NCBI RefSeq assembly: GCF_025602895.1
Contig: NW_026516209.1
Span: forward strand, 992,001-1,056,000
Reading direction: 5' to 3'
Length of the DNA: 64,000 nucleotides
Source of the DNA: Polychytrium aggregatum
Taxonomy: Eukaryota > Chytridiomycota > Chytridiomycetes > Polychytriales
The number at the start of each line of letters is the position of its first letter. The first letter of the stretch is position 1. Position numbers and translations under genes: made by a program. The notes beneath the pieces are model-generated. The model was not told the DNA's origin, ran no database searches, and worked only from the letters and a program-made list of their open reading frames with translations. Positions 9,140 through 44,026 of this stretch are shown here, piece after piece.

Positions 9140-10708
9140 TCAGGGCCACTCGCCGAGTTCCTTGAGTTCGGCGATGACATATTTGCAACCCTGATCGGCG
9201 GACTTGCGATACCAGAAGACGGCGGTATCGATGTTCTCGGGGACATCACGGCCAGATTGGTAATAGACGCCGAGATAATGTTGTCCATATCGATTGCCTT
9301 GTTCGGCCGACTTGCGAAACAACTCGGCTGCCTTGGCGTGGTCCTTGGTGATTCCCCATCCATTCCAGTAGTACCTACCAACCCACCACTGCCCATACGA
9401 GTTGTCTTGGATGGCGGACTTGCTGTACCACTCAAACGCCTTATCATAGTCCGCCAATACTCCTCTGCCACCAAAGTAGCACCATCCGATCCAAAGCTGG
9501 CTGTCGCTGTGACCATCGTTGGCGAGTTGTTCAAAGATGTCAGCTGCCTTCTTCCGGTCATTTGTGGTTCCAAATCTATGGAACAGACACACGGCCATAA
9601 GGTGTCTGCACAGCCAATCTCGCTTCGATGAGAGCTGACATAGCTCGAAGAACTTGCATGCTGCGGGTGAGTCGGAATTGATGCTGTTCCAACACGCTCG
9701 CAGACACTCGTCCTCTCCGAGTGGGAACTTATCCGATCTGTTCTCTCGGATGATCTTGATTCCCTTCGGCTCGTCTCGCTCTGTACCTCGACCGAGATAG
9801 TGCATCCACCCGACCATGTGCGTGGCGATGGTCTTGATGACTGGGTTGGTGGACTGGGTGCTGACTTCCTGCCAGTGATTGAAGGCAACTTCATCGCTCT
9901 GCTCGACACCAAGGCCGATGAACGAGAACCAGGCTCGCAGGAACACGATGTGGAGACGGCCGTCTTCACTGCCTTGATCCGCAGCCTTGGAGTACCACTC
10001 GATGGCTGTGTCGTAGTCTTGATCGACACCTTCACCACTTTCGTAGCATCGACCGAGGGCGATTTGGGCCTGAGGGATTCCACGATCTGCAAGCCTGCGG
10101 TACAGCTCGACAGCTTTGGTATGGTCTCGGTCGACACCAGCGCCATCGTTATAGCACTCGGCCAGGTGGAACTGGGCCATGGGGTGGTTGTTGTCTGCGG
10201 CCGTTTGCAGGAGACTGGTGATTTGCTGCTTGATGCCTTGCTGCTCGGACCATTTCACTTGGCCTTGGTCGAGATCGACTTGAAAGATCCGTGCCAAAAA
10301 ATACGATGATGATGGGTTTCCTTGGTCTGCTTGATTATTCAACCAGGATCGGTTCGCTGTCACTTGATCCTTGCAATGAAGCGAGATGGCAATCTGGTCA
10401 CTTGGTGTGAGGCCGATTCGCATCTGTCCGTCTGGATTGCACAGTCCTTCCTTCTGACACCAGGTGTGGAGGCGAGGCACCTTGGAGCTCAGGAGAGGGC
10501 GGGTGCGCTTGCACACTCGGAGCAGGGTCTTGATGGTGCTGTGATCGAGGGCGATCTGGAAACTGTCGTTGAAGCACACGATTGTGAAGATATCTGGGCT
10601 GTGTTGGAGTGGGAGCTGGGTGATATCGGGCATCGACGAGGTTGCTCTGGCTTCAGCTTGGCTTTGGTGAGTGGCAGATGATGCCGTGTTTGAAGCAGAC
10701 TCGATCAT
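9140..10708 (-). CDS. Sel1-like repeat (SLR) protein
   Basis: A single exon codes for 522 residues from the ATG at 10708 (the frame opens slightly earlier, but only with TTG). The N-terminal 100 residues resemble an F-box- or BTB-like leader (DIFTIVCFNDSFQIALDHSTIKTLLRVCK), but this is not certain. From about residue 130 come eight or so Sel1 repeats, recognisable by units such as HLAECYNDGAGV, ALGRCYESGEGVDQDY, WIGWCYFGGRGV and YLGVYYQSGRDV. SLR proteins are alpha-solenoid scaffolds for signalling or ER-linked degradation. The gene diverges from the SAM-TIR-NACHT-WD40 gene with 640 bp between starts, which makes shared regulation possible. No enzymatic motif is visible. Confidence 0.85.
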   Translation of the reverse strand: MIESASNTASSATHQSQAEARATSSMPDITQLPLQHSPDIFTIVCFNDSFQIALDHSTIKTLLRVCKRTRPLLSSKVPRLHTWCQKEGLCNPDGQMRIGLTPSDQIAISLHCKDQVTANRSWLNNQADQGNPSSSYFLARIFQVDLDQGQVKWSEQQGIKQQITSLLQTAADNNHPMAQFHLAECYNDGAGVDRDHTKAVELYRRLADRGIPQAQIALGRCYESGEGVDQDYDTAIEWYSKAADQGSEDGRLHIVFLRAWFSFIGLGVEQSDEVAFNHWQEVSTQSTNPVIKTIATHMVGWMHYLGRGTERDEPKGIKIIRENRSDKFPLGEDECLRACWNSINSDSPAACKFFELCQLSSKRDWLCRHLMAVCLFHRFGTTNDRKKAADIFEQLANDGHSDSQLWIGWCYFGGRGVLADYDKAFEWYSKSAIQDNSYGQWWVGRYYWNGWGITKDHAKAAELFRKSAEQGNRYGQHYLGVYYQSGRDVPENIDTAVFWYRKSADQGCKYVIAELKELGEWP

Positions 10709-11347
10709 GCTGGCCAAGTTGACGGAGACAGGAGGGAGGCAAGTGGGCGATGGAGATGGACATGAGACAGAGAGGCATGTTGTGGCGAAGCAAGCCTGGC
10801 TCGATCCGATGGCTTGCTGGCTGGATTCATTGTTACTCGCAGCGCTGCCACATGCATTGAATATGAATCAAGCATGAAGTCGAAAGTGGAATCGAACACC
10901 GCATTCTCGGCATACAAGTATGTGCCTCATATATTCCATATCAGACCTGCCGGATCCATCTTGGCAACCACCTCTGCTTCGAACAGCCAGTCCTCATTGC
11001 CCACACTCGGAAGGATGTCAAGGTCAAATCTGAGATCAATGTCGTCACAAGGACACCGAACAGCCCACCGACTCTCCGAACTCCAAGACCATCACCCTGC
11101 CCCGCACCACAGTGCCCTGCCATGATGGCCCATGAAAGATGATGAAGTGTCAAAGGCGAGATTGTGTGCTGGATTGACCAGAGTTGAGTGCATTGCCACC
11201 CGGCTCCAACCTGGATCCACCCTGGCTCCATTTGGCTTCACTGGCAAGTTGATTCCCCAAAACTGGTGGCGTCTCCCAGCCTTCTCTTTCCCCCTCGCCT
11301 TCTGTCAATCTGCCTTCCATTGACATCGCCTGTCCTGAGACTCTGCA
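10709..11347. promoter_or_regulatory. Shared divergent promoter region (SLR gene / NLR-like gene)
   Basis: This 639-bp interval separates the start codons of two genes transcribed away from each other. It has no convincing ORF. I see no clear TATA element; the segment next to the NLR-like gene is C/T-rich. Confidence 0.4.
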
Positions 11348-14300
11348 ATGTCGGGAGGTGAGTGTCGCATCGTGGCAGGATGGTGGACACTTTCACAGCA
11401 GCTGACTGGTGGCTTGCCCTGAACAGACGACTTTGATGCTTTCCTCAAACGATATGGACTGGAGAGAAACAGGCAATGTCTGCTGGACAACGAATACGAC
11501 ACCATCGACTCGGTATGTGCTGATGAGGTGGTAGAGTGTGGCCGCTGCCCGGTGGCTGATACCAATCCCCATCCAGATCCTGGATATGCCGGGCGAGGAA
11601 ATGAGTGCAATCGGTCTCAAGTCTGGAGCAATCACCAAGATCAAACGAGCTCAGCGAGACCACAACCAACAAGCCATCACAACTCCCACTGCCCCTCCAG
11701 TCGTTGCCATCTCTACCTCGATCCTCACTCCTGCCTCCACGGAGCGAGAATACAACCCGCCTGTCCTCAATCCCGAGTGGACTTGCACCAACGGCTTCCA
11801 TATCCACGACATCTTCATCAGGTTTGTTGGTGGCGCTTGTTGTTGCCCACGATCCATTCACACCCATCTCGCATCCATCTCATCGATATTGCATCCATCC
11901 AGCTATCGTGTGGCCAGTGAGGAGGTGACTGCTGTCAAACTCCACTCGGCCCTCAGTGCTGGTCGTGTCGGCGAGCAGCACCCCTCCCATGTCTACCTGG
12001 ACGCCCGATGCCTCGAGAACGGACTGGACTGGGAGGATGGTTTCATGAACGGCCTGGCCAAATCCAAGGTCATTGTCGTCCTCCTTTCCGAGGCTGGACT
12101 CGAGAGAACCAAGACTGCTGGCACCTGCCCAGACAATCAATTCCTCGAGGTGAGTGTCGTCGATCCAGTCCAGCACCACCATCACCATCCACTCACCGAT
12201 GATCCTGTCCCAGATCGAGCTGGCTCTGAAGCAGATGAAGGAGACCCAGAACACCCGCTCTCCCGTCCAGATCCTGCCGATCCTCATCAAGTCCAGTGCG
12301 ATGATCAATGGCACCAAGTACACCAGAGACTGGTTCCCCAACAAGAACGACTTTCCCGATGCCATCCACTGCCACAAGTCCAGTCCCTCCAACCTGCACC
12401 AGATCAGCCCTCCCCTCACTGTGCGTCAGACTCTCGAGGAGTTGCTCAAGCTGCAGGCGCTGATTGCTGCCGACGACTATGCCGTCACTAAGTGAGTGTG
12501 TCTGTGTGGGACTTGCTGATGGCATTCGTCTCATCAATCAGTCAGTTGATGCAGACCATCCAGATGCTGACTCACACATCCACAGACTCGTCCCCGAGAT
12601 CCGTGAGACCTGGAAGAAGACCAGCCTCGTTGCCACTGTACCAGCCTATCTGCCGAGTGGATCGACTGTCCTCACTGCCAACGAGGACCACGCCCTGCGA
12701 CTCCTCCTCAGTCCCATCGACTCAACCCTGGACAGAGAAGCACTTGAGCATCTGTTTGTCGAGGGCACTCGCCAGTGGCTGTTCGACCAGACTACCGAGT
12801 GGACTCGTCTGGTCTCTGAAGAAACAAGGGTCCTGTGGATCACGGCTGTTGCTGGAGTGGGCAAGTCTGTTGCTGCCGCCCAGATCGCCAACATCCTCCA
12901 GGCAAACGCACAGCTGGTGTCGGCGCTGTTCCTCAAGTACAACGACACCCGCAAGAACAACCCTCGATCGGTGCTGAACACCATCGCATACGGTCTGTGC
13001 AAGTGGTACTCGCCGATCGGCCGCAAGCTCCTCGACGCCGGCCACAAGAAAGACGACCTCGACAAGATGAGCATCTCCGAGCTGTTCAAGGCCTTGATTG
13101 AGGATCCACTCGCGGCTGTCGGTGGCTACAAACCACAGGAAGCGATCGTGATCATGGTGGATGGACTGGACGAGTGTCATCCCCGTGAGGAGATCCTCGG
13201 GTTCCTGGCCAGTGGACTGCAGCGACTGCACACGAAGCATCCGTGGCTCAAGTTACTGCTGACATCCCGTCCCGAGGACGATATCAAGGCAGCATTCGAT
13301 GGAGTCCCGACCAAGACGATCGAGCCCTCGAGCGAGGAGAACATCCGTGATCTCGAGGTGTACATCCACCACCGACTGCTAGTGCACGGCACTCTCATTG
13401 ACTCGGACCGCACCGAGGCAGTCGCCATCCTGCTGGACCAGTCCAAGACATTCGTGTGGATCAACCTGATCCTCAACACCGTCGATGCAGCAGCCATGGA
13501 CGGCCCAGTGACACTCGCCACAATCAAGGACATCAACGACAGCGCCGCCGATGTCGGTCAGCTGTACCACAAGACATTCGCCAAGATCCACTCGCAGTCG
13601 AGCCACTCGGCCGAGTTGGTCACGGTGGTGTCGGCGATCGCCACAGCCCAGTCGATCCTGACCCCGCAGATCATCGCCGATGTGTTTGGACTCGAGATCG
13701 GAGTCGTTCGCGAGTGTCTCAAGAGCCTCAGTCTGGTCCTCGATCCTGGCGCCAATGGACTGGATCCCCGAGACAGCCAGTCCACCAACACCGAGGTCAA
13801 GTTCAACCACAAGTCGGTGGCGGACTATCTCCTCGGCGACGCATTGACTGGCCATCCATGGCATGTGTCGGACTCGTTCCACACGGTGTTTGCCAAGGGA
13901 TGTCTCGGCGTGATCCTCTCGCACGACCCAGTGATCAACATCTGCGACATCTACGACTTTCACGACAACACCCCAGACCTCGAGGACAGGGTCGCAGACA
14001 AGATCACACCATCACTGCGATACAGCGTCGCCCACTGGATCACACACTTTGTGTGGTGTGTGGACGGAGTGGCCGAGTCGAGTCCGGTGTGGCAGTCGGC
14101 CGAGATGGTCGATGCTGCAGCGGTGCTCACTCGGTTCGTCAAGACGCATGTGTTCTTCTGGCTCGAGTGTGGGTCGCTCACACATGTGGTCAAGCCGATC
14201 ATCGAGCAACTGGCTGTGCTGCGAGGAGTGATCACCAAGGCACTCAGCACCATCGTCGACGACATCACGAAGGAACTGGTTAAGGACACGTATCGATTCA

Positions 14301-16123
14301 TCCGCGAGTTTGCCGATCCGATCATCAAGATTGCACCACAGGTGTACAACTCGGGGTATGCATTCGCACCGAAGGAGACGGTGATCTACAAGACATATGC
14401 CGATCAACTCGAGGACAAGATCCCGTTCCTGGTCACGACTGGTCCAGCACCCACCTGGGATCCGTGTGAAATGACAATGACAGGGCACACCAACTGGGTG
14501 ACCTCCGTGGCAATCTCGCCCGATGGCAAGTGGATTGCCTCTGGCTCTGATGACAAGAGAATCAAAGTATGGGACTCTACCACGGGTCAGTTCAAGCAAA
14601 CCATCAGAGGAAGCACAAAATCCATAACCTCGCTGGCCATATCACCCGATGGCAAGTGGATTGCCTCTGGCTCCAGTGATAGCTCCATCAAGATCTGGGA
14701 TGTCACTACGGGCCAGATGGAGCACACCCTCGAGGGACACACAGGCACCGTGAACTCCGTTGTGATCTCGCCTGATGGCAAGTGGATCGCTTCCGGCGCA
14801 AGCGATAAGACCATCAAGGTGTGGGATGCCGCCACTGGCCAATTGAAGTACACCATTGAGGGTCATACAGATAATGTACGTTCCATTACCATTTCGCCCG
14901 ATGGCAAGTCGATTGTCTCTGGCTCTGGTGACAAGACTATCAGGATCTGGGATGTCATTACGGGCAAGATGGAGCACACCCTCGAGGGACACACAGGCAC
15001 CGTGAGCTCCGTTGTGATCTCGCCCGATGGCAAGTGGATCGCTTCCGGCGCAAGCGACAAGACCATCAAGATCTGGGATGCCGCCACTGGCCAATTGAAG
15101 CACACCATTGAGGGTCATACAGACAATGTACGTTCTATCGCCATTTCGCCCGATGGCAAGTCGATTGCCTCCGGCTCATATGACAAGACCATCAAGATGT
15201 GGGATGCCACCACGGGCGAAGTGAAACGCAGCATTGAAGGGCACACGGGCGCTGTAAGCTCCGTTGTGATCTCGCCCGATGGCAAGTGGATTGTCTCTGG
15301 CTCTTGGGACAACACTGTCAAGGTGTGGGACTCGGCAACGGACCATGTGAAGCGCACGCTCGAAGGGCATAGCAACTCTGTGCTTTCCGCAGCGATCTCG
15401 TTAGATGGTAAATGGATCGCCTCCAGCTCTCGAGACCAGACCGTCAAGCTGTGGAGTGCCAGCACGGGCCATTTGAAGCACACCCTCGAGGGACACACAG
15501 GCTCTGTGAACTCTGTGGCAATCTCGCCCGATGGCAAGTGGATCGTCTCAGGCTCCGACGATAGGACTATCAAGTTGTGGGATGCCACCACGAGCCAGCT
15601 GCAGCACACTCTTGAAGGACACACAGACCCTGTGCATTCTGTGGCGATTTCAGCCGATGGCAATGCGATCCGATCCTGTGATTTGAACGACAGCCAAATC
15701 AATTGGGTTCGTCATGGTGGCGAGTTTGTTCGCTCGGACGAGGACCATGTCGGTTCCGTCGCTGAGCCGCTCGATCAGGTCGCTTCCGCTCAATGGAGTA
15801 GAATCGGAAGTTGGAAATCACAGTGGATTCGCCACGAGATTCATATCATCAAAGTCCTTCACGTTCTCTTTGGTGGTTGGGACAATCGGTATTTCACTCC
15901 TTCTGGCGGAGTTGTATTCTGGACTCAAACTCCATCTCGTCCGGTCGTCATTCTGGTAAGGTCTGCTCCCGCACTTGGCCTCCCTTTGCTCCTACTAATG
16001 TTTTCACCTCCACAGCCAATCTATCTTCAAACCCCCGAGATCCACGCTGAGGCATCATCCAGCAAAGAATTCAGGCTCGCACTCACGGCTCCCCACAAAG
16101 AGCAAGGGAGAGACTCCGAGTAG
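11348..16123 (+). CDS. SAM-TIR-NACHT-WD40 protein (NLR-like STAND ATPase)
   Basis: Seven exons (11348-11357, 11427-11512, 11577-11821, 11903-12149, 12214-12491, 12586-15955, 16016-16123) splice in phase to 1447 residues. Order: SAM domain (about 4-58, FDAFLKRYGL...LDMPGEEMSAIGLKSG); TIR domain (about 108-275) with HDIFISYRVAS at the first strand, built across an intron, and FLEIELAL holding Glu196, which aligns with the SARM1 catalytic glutamate; NACHT NTPase with Walker A AVAGVGKS (376-383), Walker B IVIMVDGLDE (476-485) and sensor LLLTSRPE; a helical region; then nine to ten WD40 repeats (about 915-1315) and a short tail. Fungal NACHT-WD40 proteins mediate non-self recognition, and TIR domains often cleave NAD. 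The inferred role is ligand sensing by WD40, NACHT-driven oligomerisation and TIR NADase or signalling output. The last intron (15956-16015, branch TACTAAT) is 60 nt and in frame. Confidence 0.88.
14483..15670 (+). repeat. 126-bp WD40 repeat array with a recent 252-bp internal duplication
   Basis: About nine and a half units of 42 codons share the core ISPDGKWIASGS...KTIKxWDATTG. Units 3 and 4 (about 14719-14970) and units 5 and 6 (about 14971-15222) are nearly identical as a pair, with only scattered, mostly synonymous changes. Neighbouring units are also alike at DNA level. This is the high internal conservation known from het-d/e-type fungal WD40 arrays. Confidence 0.85.
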
Positions 16124-40625: not shown

Positions 40626-40855
40626 GGGGTGCGTTGCAGGCAACTTCAGACGGATGCTGACAGTTGCCGATGGCCCGTGAATGCTGGTTGCTGTCGGCGG
40701 TCACAGGCGGGTGCAGATGGCCTCAGAGCCTGGATCGCAGCAACGACCCGACAGGCGCCCCACCGCCCCAACGAGCGCTGATCGCATGGTGTCGCTCTCG
40801 TTTCTGGCTCCTCTGGCCGCCGAGGTTTGCCCTGATCTCATGGCCCGAGCTATCC
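40626..40855. promoter_or_regulatory. Bidirectional promoter of SAC3-like and PPR genes
   Basis: Only 230 bp separate the two divergent start codons (40625 on minus, 40856 on plus). No TATA box is obvious. The PPR frame is open through most of this interval, so its translation could begin further upstream (for example ATG 40670). Confidence 0.4.
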
Positions 40856-43800
40856 ATGCATCGCTTCGTCTCGTCCCGTCCAGGCTGTCGGCATCTCCTT
40901 CGACACCGACTGCTCTCGGCATCGACATCGGTGGCGTCCGGGCCGGGGGCCATCAGCAGTCCATCGCTATCGCTGTGCAGTCCATTCTGCTGCATGTGCA
41001 TATCTGCTATCGATCCACAGCACCCGTCCGTCCGTGGCCCGGCTGCAATTCATCGCCCATCTCGGCACTTCCAAGTCCGTCACTACAGCAGCGGCTCTGC
41101 CCATGAGACTCTTGTCGCCGCCGAGCCCGACCCCAGCCTCGAAAGCTCAATCGATTTCGTGTTGCGGGAAAGCGCCGGCCTCACTTTCGCCGAGATCGCC
41201 GACAACCCCCTGATCCAAGCCCAGATCGAGACCATCGTCGACAGAGTCGATATCGCTCTATCCCGCTGTCCCGAATCACTCGATCGAGTCTACCTCAGGC
41301 TGCCCGAGGTACTTTTGTGCTCCAAGCAAGCTCATAGAGACACGATCTGCCGACTCGCCGATGAACGAACCGGCCGAGGCAAGCCCGTCGACGCCAAGCA
41401 CTTTGCAGTCTGGATATCAAAGTGTGGTGCGAGCGATCCCACAGAGGCCGAAGCTGTCTTCCAGCGGGCTCTTGCCTCGGATGTCCTCAGCTCGCAAGCA
41501 GGCGTCTCTGTCGTCCTTGCCCTCATGAGCAACTACCGGCACAACGGTCGTCCACGCAGGTTGATCCGGTGCTTCCGCAATATGCTCAAGAACGGCCTTG
41601 CCCCAACAGCACTGGGCATTCACTTCGTCATCGAGGTCTACCTGGCGATGAGCAAGTCATCCGAACGAGCCGTTCAGTTCTTTACCGAAATGGTCGAGAT
41701 CCAGGCTCTCTCTGGCGAACTGGATCCGCCGATGCGTCTGCCTGGATACGAATCCTTTGGGTTTCTCCCCAACACCACCACCTTCAACCTCCTCCTCGCA
41801 GGGTCAGCCAAAGATGGAGCCGTCGATAGCTCCGTCCGCCTCTACAACACTATGCTCGCCACTGGAGTCAAGCCCACGCTCCAAACCTTTTCCCATTTGT
41901 TCGACGCCTTTGCTGCTTCTCTGGATGTTCGTGGAGCCAAGCATGTTCTGGACCGTCTCGTGTACATGGGCTATTCCCCCGATCGAGCAATCTACGCCAA
42001 GCTCATCCAGCTGCACGTCAAGAGGCGGGAGATGGCTCTGGCGCTCGATGCGTGCTCGGTAATGGAAGAGCAAGGTCTTGGTCTCGACGTTGGCATCTTT
42101 GGTCTTCTCATTGATGGCTATGGCGTCGTTGGCGATCTGCAAAATGCCGAACGATGCTTCTCGAGGCTTCTGGAGTTGGACATCCAGCCGACGCCCGAAG
42201 TAGTTCATGCCCTGATTCGAGCCCGAGCGGCCTCTGGAAAGATGGACAGTGCACTGGCCTTGTTCGATGAATACTTTGGCGACAAATCCGACTGGACACC
42301 GGGTATCGAGGTGTATACCACCATGATCGAGGGATTCTGCAACAAGGGCTTGCTGGAAGATGCAGACAACTGGTGGGATCGAATGCGAGAGTCCGGTATC
42401 GTCCCGTCGCTCGAGTCTTACACGGCCCTGATTAGGGGCTACGTCGTCTTGGGTGCTCGCGACGAAGCCATCCGATGGATCCGGACCCTCAGGGACAGCG
42501 GCATCACACCCGACGTCGCTGCGTACAACACCATCATCGCAGCGTACATTCAGACCAAGGACTTTGCGCAAGCCAACCAGTGGATCCAACTGCTCCTCGA
42601 GACGCCGACTCTCAAGCCTCAGGTATCGACGTTCGAGACCATTCTCGAAACGCACATTGCCACCAGCAACTATGTCTCGGCCATCATGCTCTACGACTTG
42701 ATGAAGATGCTGGGCGTCCAGCCCTCCGAACGCATATACCGGTTGCTGATCCACGATTCGGCTGAGAGTATCTCCTCGCTGCCGTCCAGGCGACGCTTCC
42801 AGGCGACATCGGATGCCCGCGACTCGGTTCGGGACTACCAATTCGATGTCAATCGTGCGTGGACCCTGCGTCCGCGGCACTCGGTTCTCACCCAGTCGCT
42901 TTTCAACGAGGGGCTGATCTTTACCAAAGTCAAGCTGGCCTATCGCGACTATCGAGCATCGCTGGCAAAGCATGCCATTCCCCAGATCTCGCCCATCTTG
43001 ATCTATCAAGGCATGATGAAGCACCTGGCTTCTACTCAGCGCTTCGAGTACGAAGGGACGGGGATTGTCCTGGACATGATCGAGGACGGTATCTGCCCCG
43101 ACCAATTCACAATAGCTCAGTACTGCGGGAGCCTTGTGCAAGCAAGCGGATGGCTGCACGCTTTCCAGCATGCCGACTCGCTGCTCCTCACGATCAACCG
43201 TCGCCTGAGCGAGTCCCTGGCAACTCCCTGCGCCGCGAGTCCAACGGAGTGGTTTTCTTCGTGGAATTCGCCCTCCTATGTTGATCGTATCAGGATTGAT
43301 GAGTGTCTGCTGTCCTGTCTGCTGGCACATTACGGTTCGTGTCATTTTGGGCCATCCGGGACCGCAGTCGAAGGCTCTACATCGGTCTTTCGAGACGAAG
43401 GCCCTCCCTCTACCTCAGATAACGCATCCGCCGCCGAAACCTCTCTGGAGCTACTGCAGCACCAATATGATATCGAGCAAGCAACTCGATATTTCTTCCG
43501 CGACAGGGCGACACAGCGGTGGCACTTTGATGATGAAGTGTTTGCTTCACCCGAGAATCTCTCCGAGTTTTGGTCGTCCATACTCCGCCTTCACTCGCCA
43601 CAACTCATGCCTGGGCCCACTCGAGTTCGCTCGGCGGACCATCCACATTTGACTTTTGAGTCTGCTACTACCTCCGTGAATCAACCAAACGCATCGCTTC
43701 CGGGAGCCGGCCATGTGTACCGAGCCACAAGCCATGCTGCGGCCTCATCAAAAGAGTTTATCGAAGCTCTGGCACTGTTGTCAAGCCGCGCTGGAGATCG

Positions 43801-44026
43801 CCCAGACCTACCCCTCCGAGCGTCATGTCTCCAGCTCTCAGACACAGTGGCTCATTTCTTGGTGTTCCTGCATGGCATGCTCCGACTCTGTCGACTGCAC
43901 GGATACCAGGAGCTCCACTGGAAAATCATTGGCGACTTGGACGCCATGGGCTATGAGGTTAACGAAATCGAGCTTGACAAGTATATTCAATCGATCTGTT
44001 CTGGTGCCAAGTCGGCCTCTGGATAA
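40856..44026 (+). CDS. Mitochondrial pentatricopeptide-repeat protein
   Basis: An intronless frame codes for 1056 residues from ATG 40856, chosen because it opens a mitochondrial presequence (MHRFVSSRPGCRHLLRHRL). The frame continues upstream without a stop to 40664. From about residue 130 there are ten or more 35-residue PPR units, such as TFNLLLAGSAKDG...LYNTMLATGVKP, EVYTTMIEGFCNKGLLEDADNWW, SYTALIRGYVVLGARDEAI and AYNTIIAAYIQTKDFAQANQW. The C-terminal 300 residues are less regular and contain a Ser/Thr-rich link. PPR arrays bind single-stranded RNA; fungal members act in mitochondrial RNA maturation, stability or translation. The target RNA cannot be inferred. It converges with the EFHB gene (219 bp between stops). 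Confidence 0.9.
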   Translation: MHRFVSSRPGCRHLLRHRLLSASTSVASGPGAISSPSLSLCSPFCCMCISAIDPQHPSVRGPAAIHRPSRHFQVRHYSSGSAHETLVAAEPDPSLESSIDFVLRESAGLTFAEIADNPLIQAQIETIVDRVDIALSRCPESLDRVYLRLPEVLLCSKQAHRDTICRLADERTGRGKPVDAKHFAVWISKCGASDPTEAEAVFQRALASDVLSSQAGVSVVLALMSNYRHNGRPRRLIRCFRNMLKNGLAPTALGIHFVIEVYLAMSKSSERAVQFFTEMVEIQALSGELDPPMRLPGYESFGFLPNTTTFNLLLAGSAKDGAVDSSVRLYNTMLATGVKPTLQTFSHLFDAFAASLDVRGAKHVLDRLVYMGYSPDRAIYAKLIQLHVKRREMALALDACSVMEEQGLGLDVGIFGLLIDGYGVVGDLQNAERCFSRLLELDIQPTPEVVHALIRARAASGKMDSALALFDEYFGDKSDWTPGIEVYTTMIEGFCNKGLLEDADNWWDRMRESGIVPSLESYTALIRGYVVLGARDEAIRWIRTLRDSGITPDVAAYNTIIAAYIQTKDFAQANQWIQLLLETPTLKPQVSTFETILETHIATSNYVSAIMLYDLMKMLGVQPSERIYRLLIHDSAESISSLPSRRRFQATSDARDSVRDYQFDVNRAWTLRPRHSVLTQSLFNEGLIFTKVKLAYRDYRASLAKHAIPQISPILIYQGMMKHLASTQRFEYEGTGIVLDMIEDGICPDQFTIAQYCGSLVQASGWLHAFQHADSLLLTINRRLSESLATPCAASPTEWFSSWNSPSYVDRIRIDECLLSCLLAHYGSCHFGPSGTAVEGSTSVFRDEGPPSTSDNASAAETSLELLQHQYDIEQATRYFFRDRATQRWHFDDEVFASPENLSEFWSSILRLHSPQLMPGPTRVRSADHPHLTFESATTSVNQPNASLPGAGHVYRATSHAAASSKEFIEALALLSSRAGDRPDLPLRASCLQLSDTVAHFLVFLHGMLRLCRLHGYQELHWKIIGDLDAMGYEVNEIELDKYIQSICSGAKSASG

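Follow-up and report, generated by a model that had tools for sequence, protein, structure and literature searches.

A predicted SAM–TIR–NACHT–WD40 receptor and its expanded gene family in a fungal assembly

Our analysis of 64,000 nucleotides of DNA (the window, 56% GC; bases 992001-1056000 of contig C386 in a 64.7-Mb assembly of 418 contigs) revealed a gene at positions 11348-16123 of the forward strand whose predicted product carries a SAM domain, a TIR domain, a NACHT-type NTPase and a WD40 array in a single chain. Effector or adaptor domains, a STAND NTPase with Walker motifs and C-terminal repeats together place the protein among the NOD-like (NLR) or STAND receptors in the broad sense. 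We propose, with a probability of about 0.63, that it is a cytosolic NLR-type receptor belonging to a large family and combining a WD40 sensor, NACHT-driven assembly and a SARM1-like TIR output. The anatomy behind this proposal (gene structure, domains, their fusion, family expansion, a conserved glutamate and variation among the repeats) is directly observed; NADase activity, cell death and a role in immunity would follow by analogy with better-studied proteins.

Gene structure and domain order

The rebuilt gene consists of seven exons that join in phase into a 4344-nt coding sequence for 1447 residues with a single terminal stop; the six introns between them are 60-94 nt long and all of the GT-AG type. 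The seven in-phase exons proposed in a first-pass annotation of this DNA are thereby reproduced, and a stop between exons 5 and 6, which would have spoken against the proposed protein, is absent from the spliced model at the sequence level. The last intron (15956-16015) contains no in-frame stop, which makes the use of exon 7, and with it the protein's C terminus, the part of the model we are least sure of. Features on the forward (+) strand are as follows.

11348-11357, +: exon 1, with the start codon; 10 nt (spliced model)
11427-11512, +: exon 2, first half of the SAM domain (spliced model and paralogous matches)
11429-11651, +: SAM domain, residues 5-57, split by intron 2 (family profile)
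11577-11821, +: exon 3, second half of the SAM domain, linker and start of the TIR domain, HDIFIS (spliced model, paralogues)
11811-12324, +: TIR_2 match, residues 111-233, split by introns 3 and 4 (Pfam)
11903-12149, +: exon 4, first part of the TIR domain; its final codon (12147-12149) encodes the putative catalytic Glu196
12214-12491, +: exon 5, C-terminal part of the TIR domain and linker (spliced model)
12586-15955, +: exon 6, NACHT, middle region and WD40 array (spliced model)
12764-13270, +: NACHT-type STAND NTPase (Pfam NPHP3_N), residues 349-517
12854-12868, +: Walker A, GVGKS, residue 379
13157-13177, +: Walker B, VDGLDEC, residue 480
14474-15733, +: WD40 array, nine full 42-residue repeats (14474-15607) and a degenerate tenth (15608-15733)
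15734-16123, +: C-terminal tail, with a QWIRH...H.LF...RPVVI-like stretch (by eye)
16016-16123, +: exon 7, C-terminal tail and stop; least certain junction (spliced model)

Three of the four domains are recognised in the window protein itself, much as first described. The NTPase matches NPHP3_N, a NACHT-like STAND NTPase family, at 101.1 bits against a cut-off of 24.8, and the Pfam NACHT model scores 20.6 bits, under its own cut-off of 26.7; both Walker motifs are intact, and the protein also contains LLLTSRPE. Pfam finds WD40 in ten stretches. Within the N-terminal 314 residues TIR_2 reaches 30.3 bits (cut-off 28), and the opening of the domain carries the DIFISYR motif.

The SAM domain is a different matter, and the earlier claim holds for the family more firmly than for this copy. 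Pfam reports no SAM domain in residues 1-314 at E<1; the 64-residue SAM stretch searched alone gives 0.014, below the cut-off, and a single-sequence search of the PDB with the window protein returns SAM domains weakly, the best at 0.15 (tankyrase SAM). A profile built on the SAM stretches of ten paralogues, picked out of 28 spliced models, behaves differently: all 12 PDB sequences that it matches at E<0.005 are SAM domains (best E 1.5e-8), and its matches include the SAM domains of caskin, SHIP2, ANKS6, bicaudal and ephrin receptors. Relaxing the limit to an E of 1 brings the PDB matches to 43, which take in a few unrelated proteins with weak values of 0.12 and above. In Pfam, each of the ten chosen members hits both SAM_2 and SAM_1 with E no higher than 1, the best value being 2.1e-9. 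The assignment is therefore clear across the family and remains below threshold in the window's own sequence.

Is the joining of these domains a property of the family? The N-terminal 560 residues of the window protein were aligned to 28 loci, haplotype duplicates included, with a spliced aligner that is blind to the window's introns and penalises stops. The phase-2 intron at the TIR–NACHT junction recurs in 27 of the 28 models, the exception being the C165 locus, which has no intron there. Introns of phases 2, 0 and 2 in the TIR region occur together in 25, and 21 models add the phase-0 intron of the SAM domain to this trio; paralogues 44-55% identical in the TIR domain are among those sharing introns. 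The phase-1 intron that follows exon 1 is likewise found in paralogues on C79, C146, C16, C212, C32, C235 and C9. By eye, six models (the two C179 loci, C82, C372, C112a and C12) lack a credible SAM part. At C165 (L069) a single open frame of 1523 codons takes in the C-terminal part of the TIR domain, NACHT and WD40. The TIR–NACHT order is seen again, with WD40 present (by eye), at C397 and at the 383-kb locus of C201; C397 has a SAM domain, and none is evident at C201 in the 0.7 kb preceding its TIR domain. WD40 repeats were found at all five loci whose 3' part was read, in the window by Pfam and in the four paralogues by eye. The tail stretch listed above has a close match in C397 and looser ones in C201 and C165, again by eye. 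Because the introns recur in paralogues and C165 offers a single open frame, we regard the SAM–TIR–NACHT–WD40 fusion as real at the DNA level. A search for an allelic copy of the gene gave none, its 2-kb 3' flank matching nothing but itself over the full length.

The TIR domain and a proposed mechanism

SARM1 is an NAD+ hydrolase and cell-death enzyme of animals. A single-sequence PDB search finds the SARM1 TIR domain at a weak 0.43. With a profile of ten aligned TIR stretches of the family, 17 PDB sequences are matched at E<0.01, all of them SARM1 (best 2.2e-5), and TIR_2 is matched by all ten chosen members, the best at 2.9e-8. The PDNQFLE-I stretch aligns with the SARM1 segment ending in the catalytic glutamate, which we take to be Glu642, and the corresponding residue is invariant in the ten aligned TIR domains (one row via an inferred splice). 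SARM1 thus being the only significant PDB relative of the profile, with the glutamate aligned, the SARM1-like character ascribed to the domain at first reading is upheld. Choanoflagellate homologues of SARM1 keep the glutamate as well (PMC6040629).

From these features a scheme for receptor function can be drawn, borrowing from the biology of other STAND proteins. The WD40 propeller would sense a ligand through its variable residues, and ligand binding would free the NACHT NTPase to oligomerise. Assembly of NACHT would then cluster the SAM and TIR domains, upon which a SARM1-like TIR domain with its conserved glutamate could cleave NAD+ or make an NAD-derived signal, leading to cell death or alarm. 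The SAM domain would most likely reinforce the oligomer or recruit other SAM proteins. A TIR NADase output is plausible on the alignments described above. If the TIR domain is active, the presence of true TIR NADases in fungal immunity becomes a directly testable question, and the occurrence of SAM, TIR and NACHT in one chain would bear on how a SARM1-type assembly could have evolved.

The same genome holds other TIR frames. Its best TIR_2 match (2e-16, hmmscan) is on C386 as well, outside the window and some 65-69 kb downstream from the receptor gene (L001 1288-2496, +), in a frame whose C-terminal half has no Pfam match. A 612-residue frame at L006 376-2214 (-) combines TIR_2 (2.5e-7) with a GMGGIGKS P-loop and a sub-threshold NB-ARC match (0.0026), and is perhaps a TIR–NB-ARC-like protein. 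As sources of the TIR domain itself, prokaryotic and viral origins were considered: scans with two short peptide patterns from the TIR alignment, which miss distant TIR domains, gave 7 pattern stretches in genome contigs and 12 in viral contigs, with no relative among either.

Family size, repeat variation and genome context

The gene belongs to an extensive family in its own assembly. At least 183 matches to the TIR exon have an E of 0.01 or better (150 of 241 candidates were scored), and 108 NACHT matches, some of them fragmentary, merge into 98 loci. Of these 98, 92 have a TIR match on their own strand no more than 1.5 kb upstream, a count that includes haplotype duplicates and, many contig pairs looking duplicate, could drop to about half or less. 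When the window SAM is the query, 59 of the 92 TIR–NACHT loci have a SAM-region match no more than 3 kb upstream; adding selected matches of a second SAM query brings this to 70, the matches of a third query being left out of the count. C165, one of the loci without such a match, does align to the SAM domain in its spliced model. Two loci near the end of contig C179, at 600241-601176 (-) and 613269-614204 (+), have identical NACHT scores in opposite orientation and may reflect a palindromic duplication or an assembly artefact.

The WD40 array varies in a patterned way. Its nine full repeats are on average 62% identical in amino acids and 71% in nucleotides; repeats 3 and 5 form the best pair (95% of nucleotides), and repeats 4 and 6 share 83%, which suggests duplication of a two-repeat block. 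In Podospora, repeat codons 7, 9, 25 and 27 were reported to be positively selected, each pair flanking a conserved site, in a study that also gives the repeats of other WD proteins as rarely more than 10-20% alike (PMC1805685). Positions 8 and 10 of the window repeats, which flank Val9, and positions 26 and 28, which flank Asp27, match these codons and rank third, second, first and fifth in variability. In the window array 2 of 111,930 sets of four positions have a summed entropy at least as high as theirs, against 92 of 111,930 in the paralogue on C135 and 3 of 111,930 when the arrays are pooled. Mapping the seven positions named in PMC12222747 provisionally, through a repeat consensus and an offset of four, gave a permutation value of 0.00015 in the window array, and the ratio of nonsynonymous to synonymous differences (pN/pS) is 0.84 at these sites versus 0.31 elsewhere. 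The C135 paralogue, 96% identical in NACHT, has its frame broken after six complete repeats.

Which organism carries this family? The assembly encodes a flagellar radial-spoke protein and several Chitin_synth_1 genes, and we take the host of the receptor to be a zoosporic fungus. The receptor had been called a chytrid protein; the radial spoke and fungal chitin synthases agree with that as far as a zoosporic fungus, but these genes allow no finer placement. A search for the HET domain gave no match in the assembly, a weak negative since its control matched nowhere.

A 2014 survey, as far as its available text goes, found no NLR in chytrids (PMC4986451). Against this background, 98 NACHT loci of one family, 92 of them with TIR, stand in a single zoosporic fungal assembly from a group in which surveys, to the extent they were available, found few or no NLRs, although the comparison is uneven, setting six-frame DNA loci with haplotype duplicates against annotated proteins. 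Our search of the open-licence PubMed Central literature, subscription literature lying outside it, found no fungal SAM–TIR–NACHT–WD40 protein; the kind of receptor is already known, and the domain combination and its scale look new within that literature. Should the proposed function be correct, it would mean that a SARM1-like SAM–TIR output and a fungal WD40 sensor came together outside the animals, and in a lineage so far regarded as poor in NLRs or devoid of them.

Next to the receptor gene, at 9140-10867 (-), lies a Sel1-repeat open frame (Sel1 1.9e-59) in head-to-head orientation, its 5' edge about 0.5 kb from the receptor's ATG. The next two closest Sel1 matches, on C16 and C212, are also head-to-head with receptor paralogues, and the Sel1–receptor pair may have been duplicated together. 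Among 76 scored Sel1 genes (of 888 candidates), 15 have a family NACHT locus no more than 10 kb away versus 2.6 expected, an excess inflated by haplotype duplicates and block duplication; all nine Sel1 genes located 5' of NACHT loci are in opposite orientation. Further along the window, positions 40661-44026 (+) hold a long and ordinary PPR-repeat frame of 1121 residues (PPR_2 9.2e-46).

Alternative readings and known systems

Several observations weigh against the receptor model as proposed. The gene model derives from DNA sequence alone; 22 of the 92 TIR–NACHT loci lack a SAM-region match, and many of the matches counted are singly weak (E up to 1) and include the linker. Diversifying selection is not proven, given a pN/pS that does not reach 1 at the variable repeat sites and a high pS (0.55). 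The variation tests cover receptor arrays only (window and C135), and a repeat identity of 62% falls far under that of the most alike HNWD repeats. The remaining points concern the TIR pocket. A tryptophan four places before the glutamate is a ligand contact in SARM1, three BB-loop residues (Glu, Arg/Lys and Gly) are important for its catalysis, and presence of the glutamate is not always paired with enzyme activity, as PMC7075850 reports. Here the tryptophan position holds Asn, and of the BB-loop trio the Gly alone is retained, in 8 of 10 aligned rows. The conserved glutamate supports an enzymatic potential, yet the pocket differs from that of SARM1.

This pocket gives rise to one of the two alternatives that survive best, in which the TIR domain is a scaffold rather than an enzyme and oligomerised TIR and SAM domains recruit separate TIR or SAM effectors. 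The absence of the tryptophan and of two BB-loop residues would fit such a role, and L001 and L006 exemplify other TIR proteins of the genome that might act as partners; the glutamate, however, is invariant in ten aligned members, and the only significant PDB relatives of the TIR profile belong to an NADase. We consider a scaffold unlikely. It is also conceivable, and to our mind similarly improbable, that the family serves mainly as an allorecognition repertoire controlling fusion incompatibility instead of sensing pathogens: HET-NACHT-WD40, the nearest architecture to have been studied, governs heterokaryon incompatibility (PMC12881547, PMC12222747).

A less probable alternative still is that the window copy is a decaying or non-expressed member of the family. 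Decay does occur around it, as the broken C135 frame, the six models lacking a credible SAM part and the NACHT matches in pieces indicate, but the window copy itself splices to 1447 codons free of stops and frameshifts, with its Walker motifs and GT-AG splice sites intact. Lastly, the suggestion that the SAM and TIR exons form a separate upstream gene, joined to NACHT by a modelling error, can draw on a first exon of merely 10 nt in a DNA-based model but is very improbable in view of the C165 frame, the junction intron in 27 of 28 models, and the order and strand shared by 92 of 98 NACHT loci.

Returning to the receptor reading, we compared the protein with characterised systems. With SARM1 and TIR-1 it shares a SAM domain adjoining a TIR domain, the closest PDB relationship of that TIR domain and the aligned glutamate. 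It differs in having no ARM match (residues 1-314 match just TIR_2 and, below cut-off, RunxI), in possessing one SAM domain that starts at residue 5, followed by a linker to TIR without a Pfam match, instead of a tandem SAM, and in placing the TIR domain internally, ahead of NACHT–WD40. The ligand tryptophan and two BB-loop residues of SARM1 are not kept, and SARM1's own SAM domain is only a weak match to the family SAM profile (0.098).

The HNWD proteins of Podospora (het-d, het-e and het-r) resemble the receptor in the succession of NACHT and an array of 42-residue WD40 repeats, in the concentration of variation at positions flanking conserved V and D (codons 7, 9, 25 and 27), and in the existence of a close paralogue (C135) that has fewer repeats and whose frame breaks. 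The likeness to het-type NACHT-WD40 proteins noted at first reading is sound. Unlike them, the receptor has TIR with SAM in place of the HET domain, its repeats are 62% alike on average versus up to 100% in HNWD, and its host, judged by the flagellar gene, is not an ascomycete.

Other fungal NLRs come nearer at the N terminus. PMC9815663 reports TIR in NLRs of Chytridiomycota, citing among others a 2020 chapter, as well as TIR-like (SEFIR-like) N-termini in Pezizomycotina and SAM_Ste50p among fungal NLR N-termini; fungal TIR-NLRs are termed "a small group" in PMC10197012. These proteins share a TIR or TIR-like domain on the N side of a fungal NLR, whereas the text available says nothing of a SAM domain ahead of TIR or of a high copy number. 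Amphioxus has TIR-NACHT, TIR-[NB-ARC]-WD40 and TIR-SAM proteins (PMC2575513), the same modules in pairs or threes; the available part of that paper describes no single protein combining SAM, TIR, NACHT and WD40.

We finally consider the plant immune receptors, taking the receptor family as a whole. Plant TNL receptors join TIR to NB-ARC and LRR. The common plan is a TIR domain, a STAND NTPase and a repeat sensor, realised here with NPHP3_N and WD40 rather than NB-ARC and LRR, judging by the best 25 of 65 families matched. We speculate, tentatively, that an arsenal of dozens of SAM–TIR–NACHT–WD40 receptors could represent a fungal counterpart of the plant TNLs, one that would pair SARM1-like NAD+ chemistry and a SAM assembly module with an HNWD-like diversification of the WD40 sensor.

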